From: Bacteroidota bacterium
GTDB lineage: Bacteria; Bacteroidota; Bacteroidia; Bacteroidales; FEN-979
NCBI GenBank assembly: GCA_026391775.1
Contig: JAPLDK010000068.1
Span: forward strand, 1-64,000
Length of the DNA: 64,000 bases
Direction of reading: 5' to 3'
Shown: positions 47,261 to 57,864 of the stretch, piece by piece
Layout of the letters: each line of letters starts with the position of its first letter
Position numbering within the stretch: the first letter of the stretch is position 1
Program-made: the position numbers and the translations under genes
The notes under the pieces: model-generated
Seen by the model: the letters and a program-made list of their open reading frames with translations, nothing else
The model's database searches: none
What the model was told of the DNA's origin: nothing

Positions 47261-47809
47261 ATGATCCTTGAACCAATCACCAAACGCAGAAGCCATTTTT
47301 CTTTTTCCGGAGAACCGGTTGCACAGGAAAAACTTCTTGAAATCATCGAAGCTGCCACACATGCTCCTTCCGGAGGGAACAATCAGCCCTGGCGGTATTA
47401 TTACGCACTGAATGGAACAAGCGGTTTTGATGCACTTCTCGGCTGTCTTGATGAAGGTAACCAACGTTATGCCGACAAGGCCGGAGCTCTGATACTTTCA
47501 GCAGCCCAGATGAAGTATGTTTACAAGGATAAAGAATATAAAAACTCTCATGCATGGCATGATACCGGCCTTGCAAATTCCCTGCTGCTTATCCAGGCTG
47601 TTGCTATCGGTTTGAAATCACATCCCATGGGGGGCTTTGATCCTGAAAAAGCACGTAAAGTTGCAAATCTTGGCCCTGATTACGATCCGGTTGTAATGAT
47701 AGCGGTAGGATACCCGGGAAACGAGGCAAGCCTGCCTGCAGATATTCTTAAAAAACAGACCGCTCCCCGCAAGCGTAAGCCGTTTGAAGAGATTGTAAAG
47801 CAACTTTGA
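47261..47809 (+). CDS. nitroreductase family protein
   Basis: 182 residues of a flavin-dependent fold. MILEPITKRRSHFSFSGEPV and ATHAPSGGNNQPWRYY are the FMN-binding start, and GLANSLLLIQAVAIGLKSHPMGGFDPEKARK with VMIAVGYPGN are the later flavin-contacting segments. Reductant and substrate are not identifiable. It precedes the corrinoid-protein trio by about 40 bases; a functional link is only suggested by position. Confidence 0.9.
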   Translation: MILEPITKRRSHFSFSGEPVAQEKLLEIIEAATHAPSGGNNQPWRYYYALNGTSGFDALLGCLDEGNQRYADKAGALILSAAQMKYVYKDKEYKNSHAWHDTGLANSLLLIQAVAIGLKSHPMGGFDPEKARKVANLGPDYDPVVMIAVGYPGNEASLPADILKKQTAPRKRKPFEEIVKQL

Positions 47810-47846: not shown

Positions 47847-48485
47847 ATGCATGACATTCAAGCACTTGTTCAGGATCTTGAGCGCGCTTTGCTTAGCCTG
47901 AACCGTAATGAAGCGATAAAGATAATTCATCAGGCTTCAACTCAATCTTCTCCCATAGAAGCTGCATGTGAAGTAGTTACTGAGGCCCTTGATCATATTG
48001 GTGCGGGATGGGAGGAAGGCAGGTATTCATTATCTCAGGTCTATATCAGCGGATTGATTTGCGAGGAAGCCGTGGATGCCGTTTTACCCCGGGAAGCTCC
48101 TGAACGTAAGGATCAGCCCAAAATGGCCATAGGTGTATTTGCCGATTACCATCTTTTAGGGAAAAGGATAATTTATTCAAGCCTGAGGGCTGCCGGATTT
48201 GAACTTACCGATCTCGGAAGCGGTCTTAATACTGAAGATGTGGTAAAAATGGTTCACAAACAACAGATCTCCGTTTTACTATTATCGACCCTCATGCTTC
48301 CCTCGGCCTTAAAGATCAAAGAACTTACACGGCAACTGAAGGACATGCCGGTGAAAGTTGTTGTGGGCGGAGCTCCATTCCGTTTTGATGAAAACCTCTG
48401 GAAAGAAGTAGGTGCATATGCCACAGGTAAAACTCCAAAGGAAGCGCTGGAAATTGTCAATAATCTGACGGGAGGGAAGGTATGA
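47847..48485 (+). CDS. cobalamin-binding (corrinoid) protein
   Basis: 212 residues with the two domains of corrinoid methyl carriers: a four-helix cap (about 1-85, GAGWEEGRYSLSQVYISGLICEEAVDAVLP) and a B12 Rossmann domain with D100-Y-H102-L-L-G105, S147-T-L149 and G174-G175. This is the DxHxxG-SxL-GG signature of base-off/His-on binding, with His102 as the cobalt ligand. It overlaps the MtaA-like gene by ATGA. It should carry a methyl group, or report corrinoid state to the kinase encoded two genes on. Confidence 0.92.
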   Translation: MHDIQALVQDLERALLSLNRNEAIKIIHQASTQSSPIEAACEVVTEALDHIGAGWEEGRYSLSQVYISGLICEEAVDAVLPREAPERKDQPKMAIGVFADYHLLGKRIIYSSLRAAGFELTDLGSGLNTEDVVKMVHKQQISVLLLSTLMLPSALKIKELTRQLKDMPVKVVVGGAPFRFDENLWKEVGAYATGKTPKEALEIVNNLTGGKV

Positions 48486-49534
48486 ATACAATGGCAATCA
48501 CATCTATGGAGAGGGTCCTGAAAACCCTGGGCCACCAGGAACCTGACCGTGTTCCCATGTTTCTCATGCTTACAATGCATGGAGCAAAAGAGCTTGGGCT
48601 CAGTATCAGGGAATATTTCTCAAAGCCCGAACATGTTATTGAAGGCCAGCTCAGGCTGGGACAGAAATACCAGAACGATTGCATTGTTCCATTTTTTTAT
48701 GGACCGCTTGAGATTGAAGCCTTCGGAGGGGAAGTGATATGGGCTGATGACGGTCCCCCAAATTCAGGGGAACCCTTTATCCGCAGTATAGAACAGATAA
48801 ATCATCTCAAAATGCCGGATGCCCGGTCCAGCAAAGTCCTTCAGAAGGTATACAAGGCGACAGAAGGGTTAAATAAAGAAGTCGGGAATAAAATACCGAT
48901 CATTGGTGTGGTGATGTCGCCATTCTCTTTACCGGTTATGCAGATGGGTTTTGATAAATATCTTGAGATCATGTTTTTCAGGCCCGATCTTTTTAAGCGC
49001 CTGATGGAAGTGAACCAGGAATTCTGCGTGAATTTCGCTAACAGGCAGCTGGAAGCAGGAGCAACAGCCATCTGTTATTTCGATCCGGTTTCTTCGACCA
49101 CCATAATCCCCAGGGAAACATACCTCAAAACCGGGTTCCTTATCGCTCAGCAGACTATATCAAGGATCAAAGGGCCTACGGCCACACATTTTGCATCGGG
49201 GCGGATAATGGATATCGTTGATGATATTGCAAAAACGGGGACAGCTGCTGTTGGGACCAGCACCAGTGAAGATATCGGTATGATGAAAGTTGCCTGCAAA
49301 GGCAAATTGACAGTGATTGGCAATATGAACGGAATTGACATGCGTAACTGGGACAGAACCAAGACTGTGCATATCGTCAAGGATATAATCCGAAAAGCCG
49401 CCCCGGGCGGAGGATTTATATTGAGTGACAATCATGGTGAGATCCCTTTCCAGGTAAGTGAAGAAACGCTTATGACCATTTCAGAAACTGTTCAAACGTA
49501 CGGCCATTACCCAATTCAGCTCTCTGATGGATAA
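48482..49534 (+). CDS. MtaA/CmuA-like (uroporphyrinogen decarboxylase family) protein
   Basis: 350 residues of the UroD barrel family, with DRVPMFLMLTMHGAKELG near residue 22 and CYFDPVSSTTIIPRETY at about 198-213. In MtaA/MtbA/CmuA methyltransferases zinc is held by H-x-C and a distant Cys. The corresponding positions here appear to read H236-F-A238 and SDNHG (around 315-319), so the thiol ligands are missing. It is therefore unlikely to be a standard thiol methyltransferase. Sandwiched by overlaps between the corrinoid protein and the sensor kinase, it probably works with both. Confidence 0.82.
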   Translation: MNTMAITSMERVLKTLGHQEPDRVPMFLMLTMHGAKELGLSIREYFSKPEHVIEGQLRLGQKYQNDCIVPFFYGPLEIEAFGGEVIWADDGPPNSGEPFIRSIEQINHLKMPDARSSKVLQKVYKATEGLNKEVGNKIPIIGVVMSPFSLPVMQMGFDKYLEIMFFRPDLFKRLMEVNQEFCVNFANRQLEAGATAICYFDPVSSTTIIPRETYLKTGFLIAQQTISRIKGPTATHFASGRIMDIVDDIAKTGTAAVGTSTSEDIGMMKVACKGKLTVIGNMNGIDMRNWDRTKTVHIVKDIIRKAAPGGGFILSDNHGEIPFQVSEETLMTISETVQTYGHYPIQLSDG

Positions 49535-51284
49535 GTCACTCTGTTTTTTCGTTTGTGAAACACTATACCCTGAAGTGGATCATGTGCTGAGGTCGGGCAA
49601 TTATACTGGTGTGATTGCCTTAAAGATTCCGGTAAAGTGTTCAGGGCCGTTTCTTACCGATGAACACCTTCAGGCACTTGCTGCAAAAAGCCCGGAATTA
49701 TTCGGTAAAGGTATAATCATCGGGAGCAGTTGCATAAGGCATTCCACTTCATTTCCAATTGAGAACCGTAACATCAGTTTTGTAAAAGTGGACCATTGCC
49801 TGGATATTCTTGCTCCCCCAAGTCTCATCAACCAGCTTTTCAGGGAACAGGCCTACATCATTTCAAACGGCTGGTTTTACAATTTCAGGTCTAATCTCGA
49901 TCAGTGGGGTTTTGACCGGGATACTGCAAGGAAATTTTTCGGAGAATCGACAAAAAAGCTCATCATGCTGAATACCGGTATTCCCATGGAATTCCGGGAA
50001 AAGCTTGAAGAGATGTCGGATTTCATGGGGCTTCCCTTTGAAATTATTAATATAGGGATGGACTATTGTAACCTTTTTATAAAGGACCTTATCCTGGATT
50101 GGCAAAAAGGACAGGAATCATTAAGTTTCAAATCGGAACTCGCCAGGGACTTAAAACGATCGGCCGATTATGCAGTTGTATTCCATGAGATCAACAACCT
50201 GATGCTTCTTACGGAGGAAAGCAGCATTATCATGCATTTGTTTAAAGTACTGAATGCACTCTGTGCCCCGGGCAATATTGTTTACAACCCGGTTTCCGGC
50301 GGGGTTTGCCAGCCTCAAGTTTGGTTCAGGGACCAAAGAGCGGAAGGGAACCCGGACGTTAAAACCGGTTTTACCATAGAGCTATATCATGATGCAGAAA
50401 TTGGAAGTGTCACTTTAAGCGGGATTGCTTTCCCCGAATATCTTGATCATTATATTGAGCTTTCGCAGATGATAGGCAAGATATGCAGCCTGGCAATTGA
50501 CAATGCCAGGAAATTCAAGGCAATTCTGGAAAATGAAAATTATTCTGTGGAGCAGGCAAAGAAACTGAAAGAGCTGAATGCCATGAAGGACAAATTCTTT
50601 TCCATCATAGGGCATGACCTGAGAAGCCCGCTTTCAACCATTCTTGGATTTTTGGAATTACTCAGCAATGCCGAAGCTGACTTTTCGCCGGGTGCAAGGG
50701 AAAAGGTATTCCAAAAGATGTCATCACTGGTTAGGAAAACGTATGAACTTCTTGAAAATCTTCTGGAATGGGCAAGGCTTCAAACCCAAGGGAATGAAAT
50801 CAATCCGTCAGTTTTTAACCTTGCCAAGATTGTCCGTGAAACCGTTGATCTTATAAGGCCCTCTGCCGAAGCCAAGGACATTGAGATCGGTAATCTTCTT
50901 ACGGGCCCGATGCAGGTCTTTGCTGACAAGGATTCTGTGAGGTCAGTTTTACGAAACCTCATAACCAATGCAGTAAAATTTACGAATGTAAACGGGAATA
51001 TTGAAATTTCAGCAAAGGCCGAACAAAATTTTGCCTGGATATATGTGAAAGACAATGGCGTTGGCATTTCCGATTCTTCTCTCCCAAAACTTTTCAGGAT
51101 CGATTCCGGATTCTCCACTGCCGGCACAGCCAAGGAAAAAGGTACAGGCCTGGGATTGATTCTTTGCCGTGAACTGATAGAGCGCAACAAGGGCAGCATA
51201 GGTGTGGAAAGCAAGCAGGAACAGGGATCTACTTTCTGGTTCACCCTGCCCCTGGCAGTGATGCTGATGGACGATCCTCGGTAA
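49527..51284 (+). CDS. sensor histidine kinase with DUF1638-like N-terminal domain
   Basis: 585 residues, no membrane segment visible. Residues 1-190 resemble DUF1638 proteins, which often neighbour corrinoid methyltransferases: CFFVCETLYPEV, GIIIGSSCIRHS and VDHCLDIL, with cysteines at 6, 10, 38, 69 and 91. A GAF-like region spans about 210-330. The HisKA box is FSIIGHDLRSP with His363, and the HATPase domain has RNLITNAVKF, VKDNGVGI and GTGLGLILC. The start overlaps the previous gene by 8 bases. No response regulator is nearby. Confidence 0.82.
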   Translation: MDKSLCFFVCETLYPEVDHVLRSGNYTGVIALKIPVKCSGPFLTDEHLQALAAKSPELFGKGIIIGSSCIRHSTSFPIENRNISFVKVDHCLDILAPPSLINQLFREQAYIISNGWFYNFRSNLDQWGFDRDTARKFFGESTKKLIMLNTGIPMEFREKLEEMSDFMGLPFEIINIGMDYCNLFIKDLILDWQKGQESLSFKSELARDLKRSADYAVVFHEINNLMLLTEESSIIMHLFKVLNALCAPGNIVYNPVSGGVCQPQVWFRDQRAEGNPDVKTGFTIELYHDAEIGSVTLSGIAFPEYLDHYIELSQMIGKICSLAIDNARKFKAILENENYSVEQAKKLKELNAMKDKFFSIIGHDLRSPLSTILGFLELLSNAEADFSPGAREKVFQKMSSLVRKTYELLENLLEWARLQTQGNEINPSVFNLAKIVRETVDLIRPSAEAKDIEIGNLLTGPMQVFADKDSVRSVLRNLITNAVKFTNVNGNIEISAKAEQNFAWIYVKDNGVGISDSSLPKLFRIDSGFSTAGTAKEKGTGLGLILCRELIERNKGSIGVESKQEQGSTFWFTLPLAVMLMDDPR

Positions 51285-54007: not shown

Positions 54008-55132
54008 TTATTTTACAACACTGAGCCTGCCTGTAAACAGCCCCTCATCAGTCATTACACTAATTATATAAAGTCCGCTTGCCAGGCCAGTTATATCAAG
54101 CTGGTATGGAGTTTTAAGATTAGCAGCGAATTCATGCTGTATTATCCTCCTGCCATCCTGGGTCGTTACTTCAACTGATTTCATTTTCAACGATTCGTTA
54201 CCCAGTGAAATTTGGACATTTTCCCTGGCAGGGTTGGGAGATAGTTTCAAATTCGCAGAAACCACCTCATTTTGCCTGACACCTACAGGCCAATCCGCAA
54301 TCACAAGAACATTAAAAGTTGCACCGGCCCATAAGGGAGAAATGGATTCAGTATAAATTGTCCATTGTGCCCCTTCGTACCATACGCCGATCTCATCATT
54401 GACATAGCCCTGCGACCCTCCTGAGGTAGTATAATCATGCACTACGAAAATTTTCACATTCTGGTTCCCGTTTGTAAGGGGATTGTCTATGTTGGTAATA
54501 TAATAGGAATCGGTAGCTACATGTTTGAAACAGGAAGTTCCGGTATTTGGTACAAAAATATTATAGGTACTGTTCAATTCGAGTATCCCTCCGGAGTTTT
54601 CATTATAAACAGTCCATTTCGACAGTGATTGATCATACCAGACCCCAACATGAGCCGTATCATATACACCATTATCCCAGGTCTTGGTAATAAAAAATAC
54701 TGCATTGGGGTTGTTGTTCAGGGCAGAATTATCAATTACAGACCAGTTAAGAACAGAATTACCTGTGGTTACAGTATGTGTGAATGCGGTTCCATTTTGT
54801 TTGCAGTTCAGCACATTGTAAGCAAAATTGGTGTCCATGGCAACCCGGGTTTCATCATAGATTGACCAGTCTGAACCCGTATACCATAAGCCATTGCTAT
54901 GGAGCATATATTTCTCGTGAGTGTTATCGGAAAGCCCCCAAACATGGGTAAAGATGATTTTATCAGTAACTGTATTCCCTATGAGGGATGTGTTCAGGAC
55001 AGTGTAATCGCCGAAACAGTTTGCATCGCTGTTGGCATGAATGTAGTTAGGCCCGAAATAGCTGGGCTGGGCCTGAAGATAAACTGATGCCAGGAGGCCT
55101 AAAGAAAGGAAAACAATGTGTAAAGCTTTCAT
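54008..55132 (-). CDS. T9SS-secreted protein with three similar ~60-residue modules
   Basis: 374 residues with signal peptide (MKALHIVFLSLGLLASVYLQAQ). Modules at about 50-115, 125-195 and 205-275 share a pattern ending in V/L-W-Y-x(3-5)-W-T/S-I/V-Y-x-E and then FNVLV, FVPN or NVLN; the best copy is DEIGVWYEGAQWTIYTES. Family unnamed to me. The sorting domain is LKLSPNPARENVQISLGN ... LASGLYIISVMTDEG. Probably a surface-binding protein. Confidence 0.83.
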   Translation of the reverse strand: MKALHIVFLSLGLLASVYLQAQPSYFGPNYIHANSDANCFGDYTVLNTSLIGNTVTDKIIFTHVWGLSDNTHEKYMLHSNGLWYTGSDWSIYDETRVAMDTNFAYNVLNCKQNGTAFTHTVTTGNSVLNWSVIDNSALNNNPNAVFFITKTWDNGVYDTAHVGVWYDQSLSKWTVYNENSGGILELNSTYNIFVPNTGTSCFKHVATDSYYITNIDNPLTNGNQNVKIFVVHDYTTSGGSQGYVNDEIGVWYEGAQWTIYTESISPLWAGATFNVLVIADWPVGVRQNEVVSANLKLSPNPARENVQISLGNESLKMKSVEVTTQDGRRIIQHEFAANLKTPYQLDITGLASGLYIISVMTDEGLFTGRLSVVK

Positions 55133-56280: not shown

Positions 56281-57864
56281 CTAGGCTTTACATTCCCGCG
56301 GAAGTGTAATCCTTATTCTTGTCCATCTTGAATATTCGCTTTCTATGTCAATAATTCCGTTCATTTCCTTTATGATGGCGAAAGAGATAGAAAGGCCCAG
56401 CCCTGTATACTTTTCTGCTTTTTTTGTTGTATGGAACGGAAGCATGATCTTATCCAGATCGGCCGATTTGAATCCCATTCCATTATCCATCACTTCAATT
56501 TTGATGTGAGTTTTATTTCTATAGGTTTTTAAATCGACAAGCCATTTAAATTCAGTCTTTACGATTCTCATTTTTTCTTCAATTGCATCCTGGGAATTCA
56601 GAAGAAGGTTGAGTATCACCTGTTCAAATTTTTCCGGGTCGCCGCTTATTACCTGTATGTTTTTATCAAAATTTGTTGTGAGTAGTATTCCGGCATTCGC
56701 AAACTGGTTTTCGATCATGGAAATCGAATTTCTGATTGCATTATGAATATCGAATTCAATAAAAGTCAGATTGCGGTTTACGCTGGAAAATATTTTAATA
56801 TGATCGATGACATAGGTGATCCTGGCAATACTATTGAATATCTGTTTTGCTTTATTATGAAAGTATTCCGGGTCAACAGATTTATTTTTGCTGATCTCTA
56901 CCAGCAGGTTTTCAAGGCCAAGCGAAATCAATCTCAATGGCTGATTTAATTCACAGGAAATTCCCGTGGCTATTTCTTCAATGCTTTCTAGACGTTCGTC
57001 ATTGATCATCTGTTGCTGGATCATTCTCCTTTGGGAGATATCCCTGATCACAGCCATTAATGCCCTTGGTTTTTCATTACTATCCCTGATCAGTTTGAAA
57101 CTTATTTCGCTTTCGAGCCTGGTCTGGTCGGAACATGTAATCAGAAATACAACATTAAGTACGTGGCCCTGCTCCATTGTACTCTTTATAACTTCCTGAA
57201 GCCTGGCGTGCTCATCCGGAGGAAAGAGTGTAATGATGTTAGTGCCTGTATAATCTTCCCTGCTTGATAGCTTAAATATCCCGGAAGCCACATTTGAGAT
57301 CTCCCTTATCGCCCCAGAAGTGTCCATTATAATAATCCCTTCAGGGGATGCATTAAGCAGCATGCGGTAAAGTTTCTCTGATGACAGGACTTTGCGCTTT
57401 TGCCTGTTCAGTTCCAGAAATATCTTTACTTTACTGATCAGCAGCCTGGGCTCTATCGGTTTGAAAATATAGTCGATGATCCCCGTTTCATATATTTTTT
57501 CAAGTTCAGATTCTTTACATGGATATGCAGTAATGAATATAATAGGAACGAGGTTTCTTCCTTTATCACGAAGAATACGTGAAACGAGCTCAATCCCACT
57601 CATTTCGGGCATATTAACATCGATAAGGGCAAGGGCAAGTTCTTTCCCCCTTATTTTTTCCAATGCTTCTTTCGCTGAGAATGCTCTTATGATATTGGCA
57701 TTTAAATGCCTCAGGGTTGTTTCCAGCAAGATTACATTCGGCTCAATATCGTCAACAATGAGAATATTGGGTTTATCTTCGGGCTTCATGCCCGAAAAGT
57801 AAATATTTTTTTTGAGATTAAAAATACGAGCATCCTCTTTAACAGGCTTATATGTAGCAAACAT
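56281..57864 (-). CDS. receiver-PAS-histidine-kinase-like protein lacking the phospho-acceptor His
   Basis: 527 residues (an internal ATG at 57789, MKPEDKPNILIVDD, is a possible start, but the first ATG is only 6 bases from the upstream gene). Receiver domain with Asp82 (ALIDVNMPEMSG), PAS domain (about 162-280, NASPEGIIIMDTSGAIREISN), a dimerisation helix, and HATPase with LLNSQDAI, EVMDNGMGF and YTGLGLSISF. The expected H-box GIAHELNQPL reads GISCELNQPL, with Cys304. The ATP-binding site looks intact, so it may act as a receiver-controlled scaffold or regulator rather than an autokinase. It follows the OmpA gene closely. Confidence 0.87.
   Translation of the reverse strand: MFATYKPVKEDARIFNLKKNIYFSGMKPEDKPNILIVDDIEPNVILLETTLRHLNANIIRAFSAKEALEKIRGKELALALIDVNMPEMSGIELVSRILRDKGRNLVPIIFITAYPCKESELEKIYETGIIDYIFKPIEPRLLISKVKIFLELNRQKRKVLSSEKLYRMLLNASPEGIIIMDTSGAIREISNVASGIFKLSSREDYTGTNIITLFPPDEHARLQEVIKSTMEQGHVLNVVFLITCSDQTRLESEISFKLIRDSNEKPRALMAVIRDISQRRMIQQQMINDERLESIEEIATGISCELNQPLRLISLGLENLLVEISKNKSVDPEYFHNKAKQIFNSIARITYVIDHIKIFSSVNRNLTFIEFDIHNAIRNSISMIENQFANAGILLTTNFDKNIQVISGDPEKFEQVILNLLLNSQDAIEEKMRIVKTEFKWLVDLKTYRNKTHIKIEVMDNGMGFKSADLDKIMLPFHTTKKAEKYTGLGLSISFAIIKEMNGIIDIESEYSRWTRIRITLPRECKA

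Follow-up and report, generated by a model that had tools for sequence, protein, structure and literature searches.

The 64,000-nucleotide stretch of contig JAPLDK010000068.1 analyzed here (hereafter, the window), from a Bacteroidota bacterium of the FEN-979 lineage (assembly GCA_026391775.1), carries at positions 47847-51284 three overlapping open reading frames (ORFs), all on the + strand, which encode a corrinoid carrier protein, a protein of the UroD/MtaA fold and a histidine kinase with an N-terminal DUF1638 domain. We consider it fairly probable that this trio is one sensory module, in which a DUF1638 domain with four cysteines senses the cobalt state of a corrinoid methyltransferase pair and relays it to a kinase or a cyclase. 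The broader proposal, i.e., a general bacterial and archaeal class of sensors with a corrinoid pair as the input, four-cysteine DUF1638 domains mixed with histidine kinase or GGDEF outputs, and methyl transfer to cobalt as the signal, has in our view about an even chance of being correct. Both are built on what was observed: three genes that are conserved in a fixed order in many phyla and whose outputs are exchanged, together with their motifs and predicted folds.

To survey the trio, a UroD profile made from four sequences was scanned over a genome collection; it retrieved at least 234 relatives, and 80 loci were kept. These loci were chosen by UroD similarity alone, so their neighboring genes are independent evidence. 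In six-frame profile searches, a corrinoid gene was found upstream in 76 of the 80 loci, DUF1638 downstream in 74, and both in 72, where the order corrinoid, UroD, DUF1638 was kept on one strand. As this order recurs in 72 out of 80 loci picked by UroD alone, the trio is not a chance arrangement. With the addition of the window and of three loci found through the sensor domain rather than UroD, and excluded from the independent set (L015, L016, and L027), a corrinoid gene was present in 80, DUF1638 in 78 and both in 76 of 84 loci. A gap of zero or less separated 64 of the 67 corrinoid-UroD pairs and 42 of the 66 UroD-DUF1638 pairs (longest starts, so that overlap is overstated).

Among the exceptions in the 80 loci, two had UroD alone (L033 and L036) and two lay on contigs ending 14 and 103 bases past UroD (L039 and L044, respectively). 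The others included two Electrothrix cable bacteria. In one (L075), the corrinoid gene follows UroD; in the other (L061), UroD is present twice, and the second copy, missed by the best-UroD-per-locus count, is preceded by a corrinoid gene (in two frames) and followed by DUF1638. On the UroD tree, the trio was distributed over 16 phylum labels taken from NCBI record titles, one of them archaeal; nearly all hosts are metagenome-assembled genomes, whose bins may contain stray contigs. Within the Bacteroidota, the sensor domain was rare and patchy (matches at E ≤ 0.001 in 6 of 43 genomes of the family and in 5 of 395 of the phylum), with several of the matches partial or distant. DUF1638-kinase trios were also observed in two records titled Methanomethylophilaceae, which are archaea (L101 and L112).

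The window's sensor protein matched DUF1638 (PF07796) over residues 69-180 with 31.5 bits, above the gathering cut-off of 27, as well as HisKA (38.2 bits) and HATPase_c (88.5 bits), all within one 585-aa ORF. No segment hydrophobic enough to be a membrane segment was found in it (maximum 19-residue Kyte-Doolittle mean of 1.47). The three overlapping genes, the fusion of DUF1638 to a kinase and the solubility of that kinase, all proposed in the initial annotation, were thus borne out. The kinase core scored 166 bits against NCBIfam FimS, below the cut-offs of the FimS/PhoR-type families, with which it shares the HisKA-HATPase core but not the input domain. Pfam gave nothing for residues 190-350, and the GAF-like domain was detectable by structure only; no PocR domain was found in the kinase among Pfam families at E ≤ 1, a search that left those same residues unmatched.

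DUF1638 proteins were aligned in a set of 71 of 77 ORFs and in a second set of 56 rows. Four conserved cysteines were observed (Table 1). In the kinase model, which had a mean pLDDT (predicted local distance difference test) of 90.4 and a pTM (predicted template modeling score) of 0.74, Cys10, Cys38, Cys69, and Cys91 each stand directly after a β strand (E5-10, E29-34, E61-66, and E83-87, respectively), which would be where α/β folds commonly have their active site; read from the DSSP string alone, the four probably cluster at one site. C181 was invariant in the first three kinases, but fell outside the columns conserved at ≥60% in the 71-row set. Five free-standing DUF1638 relatives exhibited Cys-His-Cys-Cys at the four positions, whereas the sensor proteins have Cys in place of His; this His belongs to a loop that could be aligned with less confidence. 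No relative of DUF1638 with a solved structure was found by sequence at E ≤ 1 (alignment A1), and saposin matches of the 56-row alignment (E 0.06-0.14) were taken as chance. The rows of the fold search mostly span residues 200-345, the GAF part; the DUF1638 fold was barely probed and no new fold is claimed.

The output attached to DUF1638 varied. Of the 74 DUF1638-bearing loci, 41 had a histidine kinase, 19 a GGDEF domain, and 14 neither, several of the latter at contig ends. The kinase count is a lower bound: one archaeal locus (L101) lacked an output in the six-frame search and had a histidine kinase in another. In three loci (L046, L078, and L087), the DUF1638 profile spans two frames rather than a single open one, and the fusion is putative. 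Pfam searches on 71 DUF1638 proteins, the window's included, detected DUF1638 in 61 (E ≤ 0.01), HATPase_c in 39, HisKA in 31, GGDEF in 18, and Response_reg in 5; the GG(D/E)EF motif was present in 18 out of 18 GGDEF proteins. On the UroD tree (77 rows, 53 labeled), at least seven changes between histidine kinase and GGDEF outputs were counted, a number that gives no direction and comes from a quick tree with 22 of 74 inner branches open. This tree omits L041, five distant UroDs, and L042, L080, L089, L093, L102, and L107. In five DUF1638 proteins (L040, L041, L050, L058, and L077), an xHGxCxxC tail replaces the kinase or GGDEF domain. In a genome from another class (G411), the third protein of the trio is DUF1638-GAF with no kinase part, and the trio is surrounded by genes for kinases, receivers, and CheB/CheR-like proteins, names which were read from translations.

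Genes adjoining the trio on the same strand (<150 bases away, at least 100 aa; 53 of 55 scanned, the window's two being omitted) often encoded signaling domains: Response_reg and HATPase_c in 24 each, PAS in 18, and a kinase, receiver, or GGDEF domain in at least 27. With a histidine kinase or GGDEF output in 60 of the 74 loci and signaling domains in about half of the adjoining genes, the sensory role suggested initially for the window's genes is supported. Pairs of corrinoid and UroD proteins are metabolic in methanogens and acetogens, and the trio could serve ordinary methyl-donor catabolism, with a fused kinase that autoregulates the operon. This we consider quite improbable, as neither an acceptor methyltransferase nor RamA was among the 25 commonest of the 91 Pfam families in the 53 adjoining genes, where receivers and kinases were common; moreover, relatives have GGDEF outputs and the window's genome has no RamA match. 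The trio was consequently not retained as a catabolic operon, even though RamA was detected in 36 of 50 trio genomes and the mec cassette, according to the available part of PMC9768040, combines a kinase, a corrinoid protein, UroD proteins, and MTII. That cassette resembles the window in its clustering of a histidine kinase with a corrinoid protein and UroD-superfamily proteins; in what is accessible of the same paper, its kinase differs in having a PocR domain, MTII and a transporter are present, and there is a link to dichloromethane metabolism.

The distribution of RamA (PF14574) also bears on the role of DUF1638. No match was obtained in the window's genome (90.7% complete), nor in any of the four Bacteroidota among the 50 trio genomes (50 of the 80 loci were taken; genomes possibly incomplete). 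Because RamA was not found in Bacteroidota trio genomes, a RamA-fed catalytic cycle seems unnecessary, and DUF1638 in the window's genome seems to work without RamA. In the Phaeobacter inhibens / Ruegeria pomeroyi system, as described in the parts of PMC5764234 and PMC12478193 available, the DUF1638 gene is, in Phaeobacter, beside and genetically linked to a corrinoid protein, but DUF1638 is a separate protein there, tied to RamA and methionine synthesis, whereas in the window it is fused to a kinase and RamA was not found. The cysteine of the window's domain contrasts with the His of the five free-standing relatives, which do not include the Phaeobacter protein. The available text of PMC5764234 reports that DUF1638 and a RamA-like protein are needed with the split methionine synthase and makes no specific proposal for DUF1638; the later PMC12478193, in its accessible part, groups the two with reductive recharging of cobalamin. 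DUF1638 could accordingly be a corrinoid reactivation domain, the kinase reporting failed reactivation or B12 availability and not a methyl donor, and in Phaeobacter the co-fitness of DUF1638 with the genes for a RamA-like protein and for the split methionine synthase (PMC5764234, available part) points that way. We hold this to be barely probable, given the change of His to Cys in the sensor proteins compared, which suggests a changed role, and the Bacteroidota trio genomes in which RamA was not detected.

The UroD protein matched PF01208 with 191 bits and remained under the curated cut-offs of both MtaA/CmuA (TIGR01463; 98.4 versus 235.4 bits) and HemE (TIGR01464; 56.6 versus 302.95 bits). 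The window's genome (90.7% complete) yielded no second URO-D match and hence no HemE. The structure model (mean pLDDT of 93.1) was nearest to MtaA 4ay8 (Z 38.6, root-mean-square deviation (rmsd) 2.4, 333 aligned); HemE structures reach Z 33-36, so the fold is shared superfamily-wide. Like MtaA/MtbA/CmuA (TIGR01463; 4ay7/4ay8), the window's protein has this fold and is paired with a corrinoid protein, but it scores under the family cut-off, lacks the His-Cys-Cys site, and is coupled to signaling.

Neither THFASG nor SDNHGEIP contains a cysteine, and the MtaA-type His-Cys-Cys zinc site is missing. Counted on the best UroD copy per locus, conservation over 84 loci was 79 for H236, 81 for A238, 82 for D316, 78 for N317, 82 for H318, and 83 for E320; position 238 was otherwise Gly (two loci) or Asp (one). 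Judging from the aligned sequences, absence of the zinc thiolates is a trait shared by the window's UroD protein and its relatives at these loci. The third zinc Cys of MtaA appears to be replaced by the near-invariant H318, in a by-eye register that sets NHG over the GCG of five MtaA-like proteins, themselves under the MtaA cut-off (L133-L137); MAFFT put a gap there, and the UroD profile match to 4ay7 stops before the third zinc position. Among the 84 loci, H318 was lost only in the two orphans, L033 and L036. The protein had been described as ligand-less in the initial annotation, with displaced zinc ligands as the alternative; the thiolates are indeed absent throughout the family and no Cys is present, but "ligand-less" overstates the case with H236 kept in 79 and D316, H318, and E320 in 82-83 of 84 loci, and with the third Cys seemingly replaced by H318 in that by-eye register. 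According to the part of PMC10418091 available, His-Cys-Cys marks S-methyltransferases, while UroD-superfamily O-methyltransferases have carboxylates or non-coordinating residues for Cys. The OdmB/VdmB O-demethylases of that paper, which were compared by its description only, likewise have such residues in place of the zinc Cys, and are catabolic. The window's protein and its relatives would be consistent with a substrate that is not a thiol, or with a site devoid of zinc.

The missing thiolates are also compatible with a redox or oxygen sensor, in which the corrinoid would stay unmethylated in vivo, the redox state of the cobalt or a metal bound by the four Cys of DUF1638 would report redox potential, and UroD would be a structural cap. 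Four-cysteine sites often carry redox-active or structural metals, and many trio hosts, among them cable bacteria, magnetotactic bacteria, and sulfate reducers, inhabit redox interfaces; in addition, H236 can be missing from intact trios. This explanation appears rather unlikely to us: conservation is much stronger in UroD than in the sensor domain (columns averaging 62% identity in a 55-row alignment, out of 69 candidate rows, versus 28% in the 56-row alignment) and the polar motifs of UroD are kept, which suggests a specific small-molecule function.

The corrinoid protein matched PF02310 with 62.5 bits (cut-off 32.1) and PF02607 with 37.8 bits (cut-off 23). It has the base-off carrier motifs DxHxxG, SxL, and GG, and the residues D100, H102, G105, S147, L149, G174, and G175 were each present in 70 out of 70 relatives (best match per locus, ≥90 bits). 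The window's protein is therefore a predicted carrier, of the canonical B12 kind recognized initially. It scored 71.4 bits against TIGR02370 (methyltransferase corrinoid protein; curated cut-off 215.3) and 40.6 bits against CarH (NF052513; curated cut-off 400). Among its structure matches was 8j2y_A (34.1 bits), described as GGDEF domain-containing; methylamine corrinoid proteins matched better (3ezx_A, 49.6 bits).

The matches to CarH and 8j2y_A raise the possibility of a light sensor of the CarH/photocobilin kind, with the cobalamin upper ligand as chromophore; according to the available part of PMC10979010, photocobilin B12-binding domains with diguanylate cyclase outputs do sense light. 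We regard it as very improbable, since the CarH score is far under the cut-off, 3ezx_A matches better, and the B12 domain and the output are encoded by separate genes, i.e., lie on separate chains. In the photocobilin-diguanylate cyclase and CarH systems (PMC10979010, available part; 8j2w/8j2x/8j2y), a B12 protein likewise controls an output such as diguanylate cyclase, but the B12 domain is fused to it, adenosylcobalamin photochemistry is used, and no methyltransferase partner is mentioned, the accessible text containing neither "uroporphyrinogen" nor "methyltransferase".

In the sensory module that we favor, UroD and the corrinoid carrier would make up a methyltransferase (or corrinoid-state) pair that is dedicated to this role and has no metabolic one. 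On meeting a compound or redox condition, UroD would shift the cobalt state of its partner (methylated, Co(II), or Co(I)). DUF1638 would dock on the corrinoid protein and read this state, and the signal would then travel through the GAF domain and along extended helices, reaching the histidine kinase in the window and a diguanylate cyclase in some relatives. The three proteins may form a complex, with a putative metal at the cysteine site of DUF1638 and the corrinoid state as the signal.

Table 1. Predicted features of the three-gene locus in the window.
Feature	Position	Strand	Details
Corrinoid (B12) carrier	47847..48485	+	212 aa; helical cap PF02607 and Rossmann B12 domain PF02310
DYHLLG (DxHxxG base-off/His-on corrinoid motif)	48144..48161	+	residues 100-105
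STL (SxL motif)	48285..48293	+	residues 147-149
GG motif	48366..48371	+	residues 174-175; within VVGGAP starting at residue 172
UroD/MtaA-fold protein	48482..49534	+	350 aa; 4-nt overlap with corrinoid gene
THFASG	49184..49201	+	residues 235-240; site of MtaA HxC zinc motif; His kept, Cys to Ala
SDNHGEIP	49424..49447	+	residues 315-322; site of MtaA third zinc Cys; D316, H318, E320 near-invariant
Soluble sensor histidine kinase	49527..51284	+	585 aa; DUF1638 - GAF-like - HisKA - HATPase_c; 8-nt overlap with UroD gene
DUF1638-type α/β domain	49527..50096	+	residues ~1-190
Cys10 codon	49554..49556	+	Cys in 64/64 rows with a residue
Cys38 codon	49638..49640	+	Cys in 63/65 rows
Cys69 codon	49731..49733	+	Cys in 56/66 rows
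Cys91 codon	49797..49799	+	Cys in 59/64 rows
GAF-like domain	50133..50537	+	residues ~203-337; best structure match 3cit_A, Z 13.2, rmsd 3.5, 130 aligned
HisKA domain	50583..50786	+	HDLRSP with His363
HATPase_c	50925..51257	+	NLITNAVKF, DNGVGI, GTGLGL boxes

Several observations weigh against this sensory module. Cys69 is less than strictly conserved, 14 of the 74 DUF1638 genes have no detected histidine kinase or GGDEF output, and 26 of the 53 adjoining genes have no recognized signaling domain. H236 is missing from the UroD of L048, L096, L102, and L109, all of which are intact trios, and the frequency of RamA in trio genomes makes a catalytic cycle possible there. In two Methanomassiliicoccales loci, L111 (9 kb) and L106 (1.1 kb of downstream sequence), corrinoid and UroD genes were present and DUF1638 was not found. 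No response regulator gene adjoins the trio kinase of the window. A receiver-PAS-kinase hybrid is encoded at 56281-57864, 5 kb downstream; its receiver/kinase counterpart (receiver read from translation) is found in the matching neighborhood of L036, which has no trio.

The same-genus genomes also speak against a strictly obligate trio. In four of them (G001, G003, G005, and G007, the last two read through L033 and L036, which have equal scores and motifs), UroD occupies the same locus, ahead of an M13 peptidase gene, with no adjoining partner. Searching the seven other genomes of the genus for the sensor domain gave no match in any of them. Between the window and the partnerless L033, UroD had a non-synonymous divergence (dN) of 0.124 and a synonymous divergence (dS) of 1.8, which is near saturation, values similar to those of neighboring genes; by this comparison, UroD remains under purifying selection. 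The orphan UroDs and this selection suggest that UroD may act independently or with another partner. In a small tree, the window, G003 with G005, and G001 with G007 formed three branches, which leaves the number of losses unsettled. H318 was lost in G005, H236 in G001, both in G007, and neither in G003. Decay of the motifs after partner loss was rejected as a strict rule, because G003 keeps both His and H236 is also lost in the four intact trios. Overall, UroD orphans were observed at the window's syntenic locus in L033, L036, L116, L118, L119, and L120.

A second Bacteroidota subfamily (L028-L032), found through the sensor-domain profile and therefore not an independent sample, has a corrinoid gene, UroD, and a free-standing DUF1638 near kinases. 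The kinases were identified by Pfam beside L028, L030, and L031, and by local search beside L029 and L032; L028 also has a chemoreceptor with MCP signaling and CZB domains. The UroD of L029-L032 exhibits Y-x-C-G where the window's family has H-x-A-S-G. A trio resembling this type was observed on a short contig (L018).

No recognizable account of a DUF1638-kinase fusion or of the trio was found in the literature searched, which consisted mainly of titles and abstract openings, with subscription literature mostly outside the search; the name DUF1638 occurred in 3 of 5.39 million papers. Modular sensor proteins are of a known kind; a corrinoid methyltransferase pair as the input would be new, if proven. 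DUF1638 would then gain a suggested role, and an enzyme-coupled corrinoid input would be added to two-component and cyclic di-GMP signaling; in the text of a review of cyclic di-GMP sensory inputs (PMC8846402), neither cobalamin nor B12, corrinoid, or vitamin is mentioned. It would also suggest that there are sensors among the corrinoid methyltransferases with a metabolic annotation, and the trio sets across many phyla would offer many testable orthologs.

Around the locus, a scan for promoters and terminators gave no more sites than shuffled sequences. A nitroreductase-family gene (47261-47809) ends 37 bases upstream of the corrinoid gene; it was rejected as evidence of a B12 role, its BluB-like score being weak (35.7 bits versus a cut-off of 150). 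Further downstream, at 54008-55132, the window encodes a protein that combines DUF7452 repeats with a Por secretion tail.

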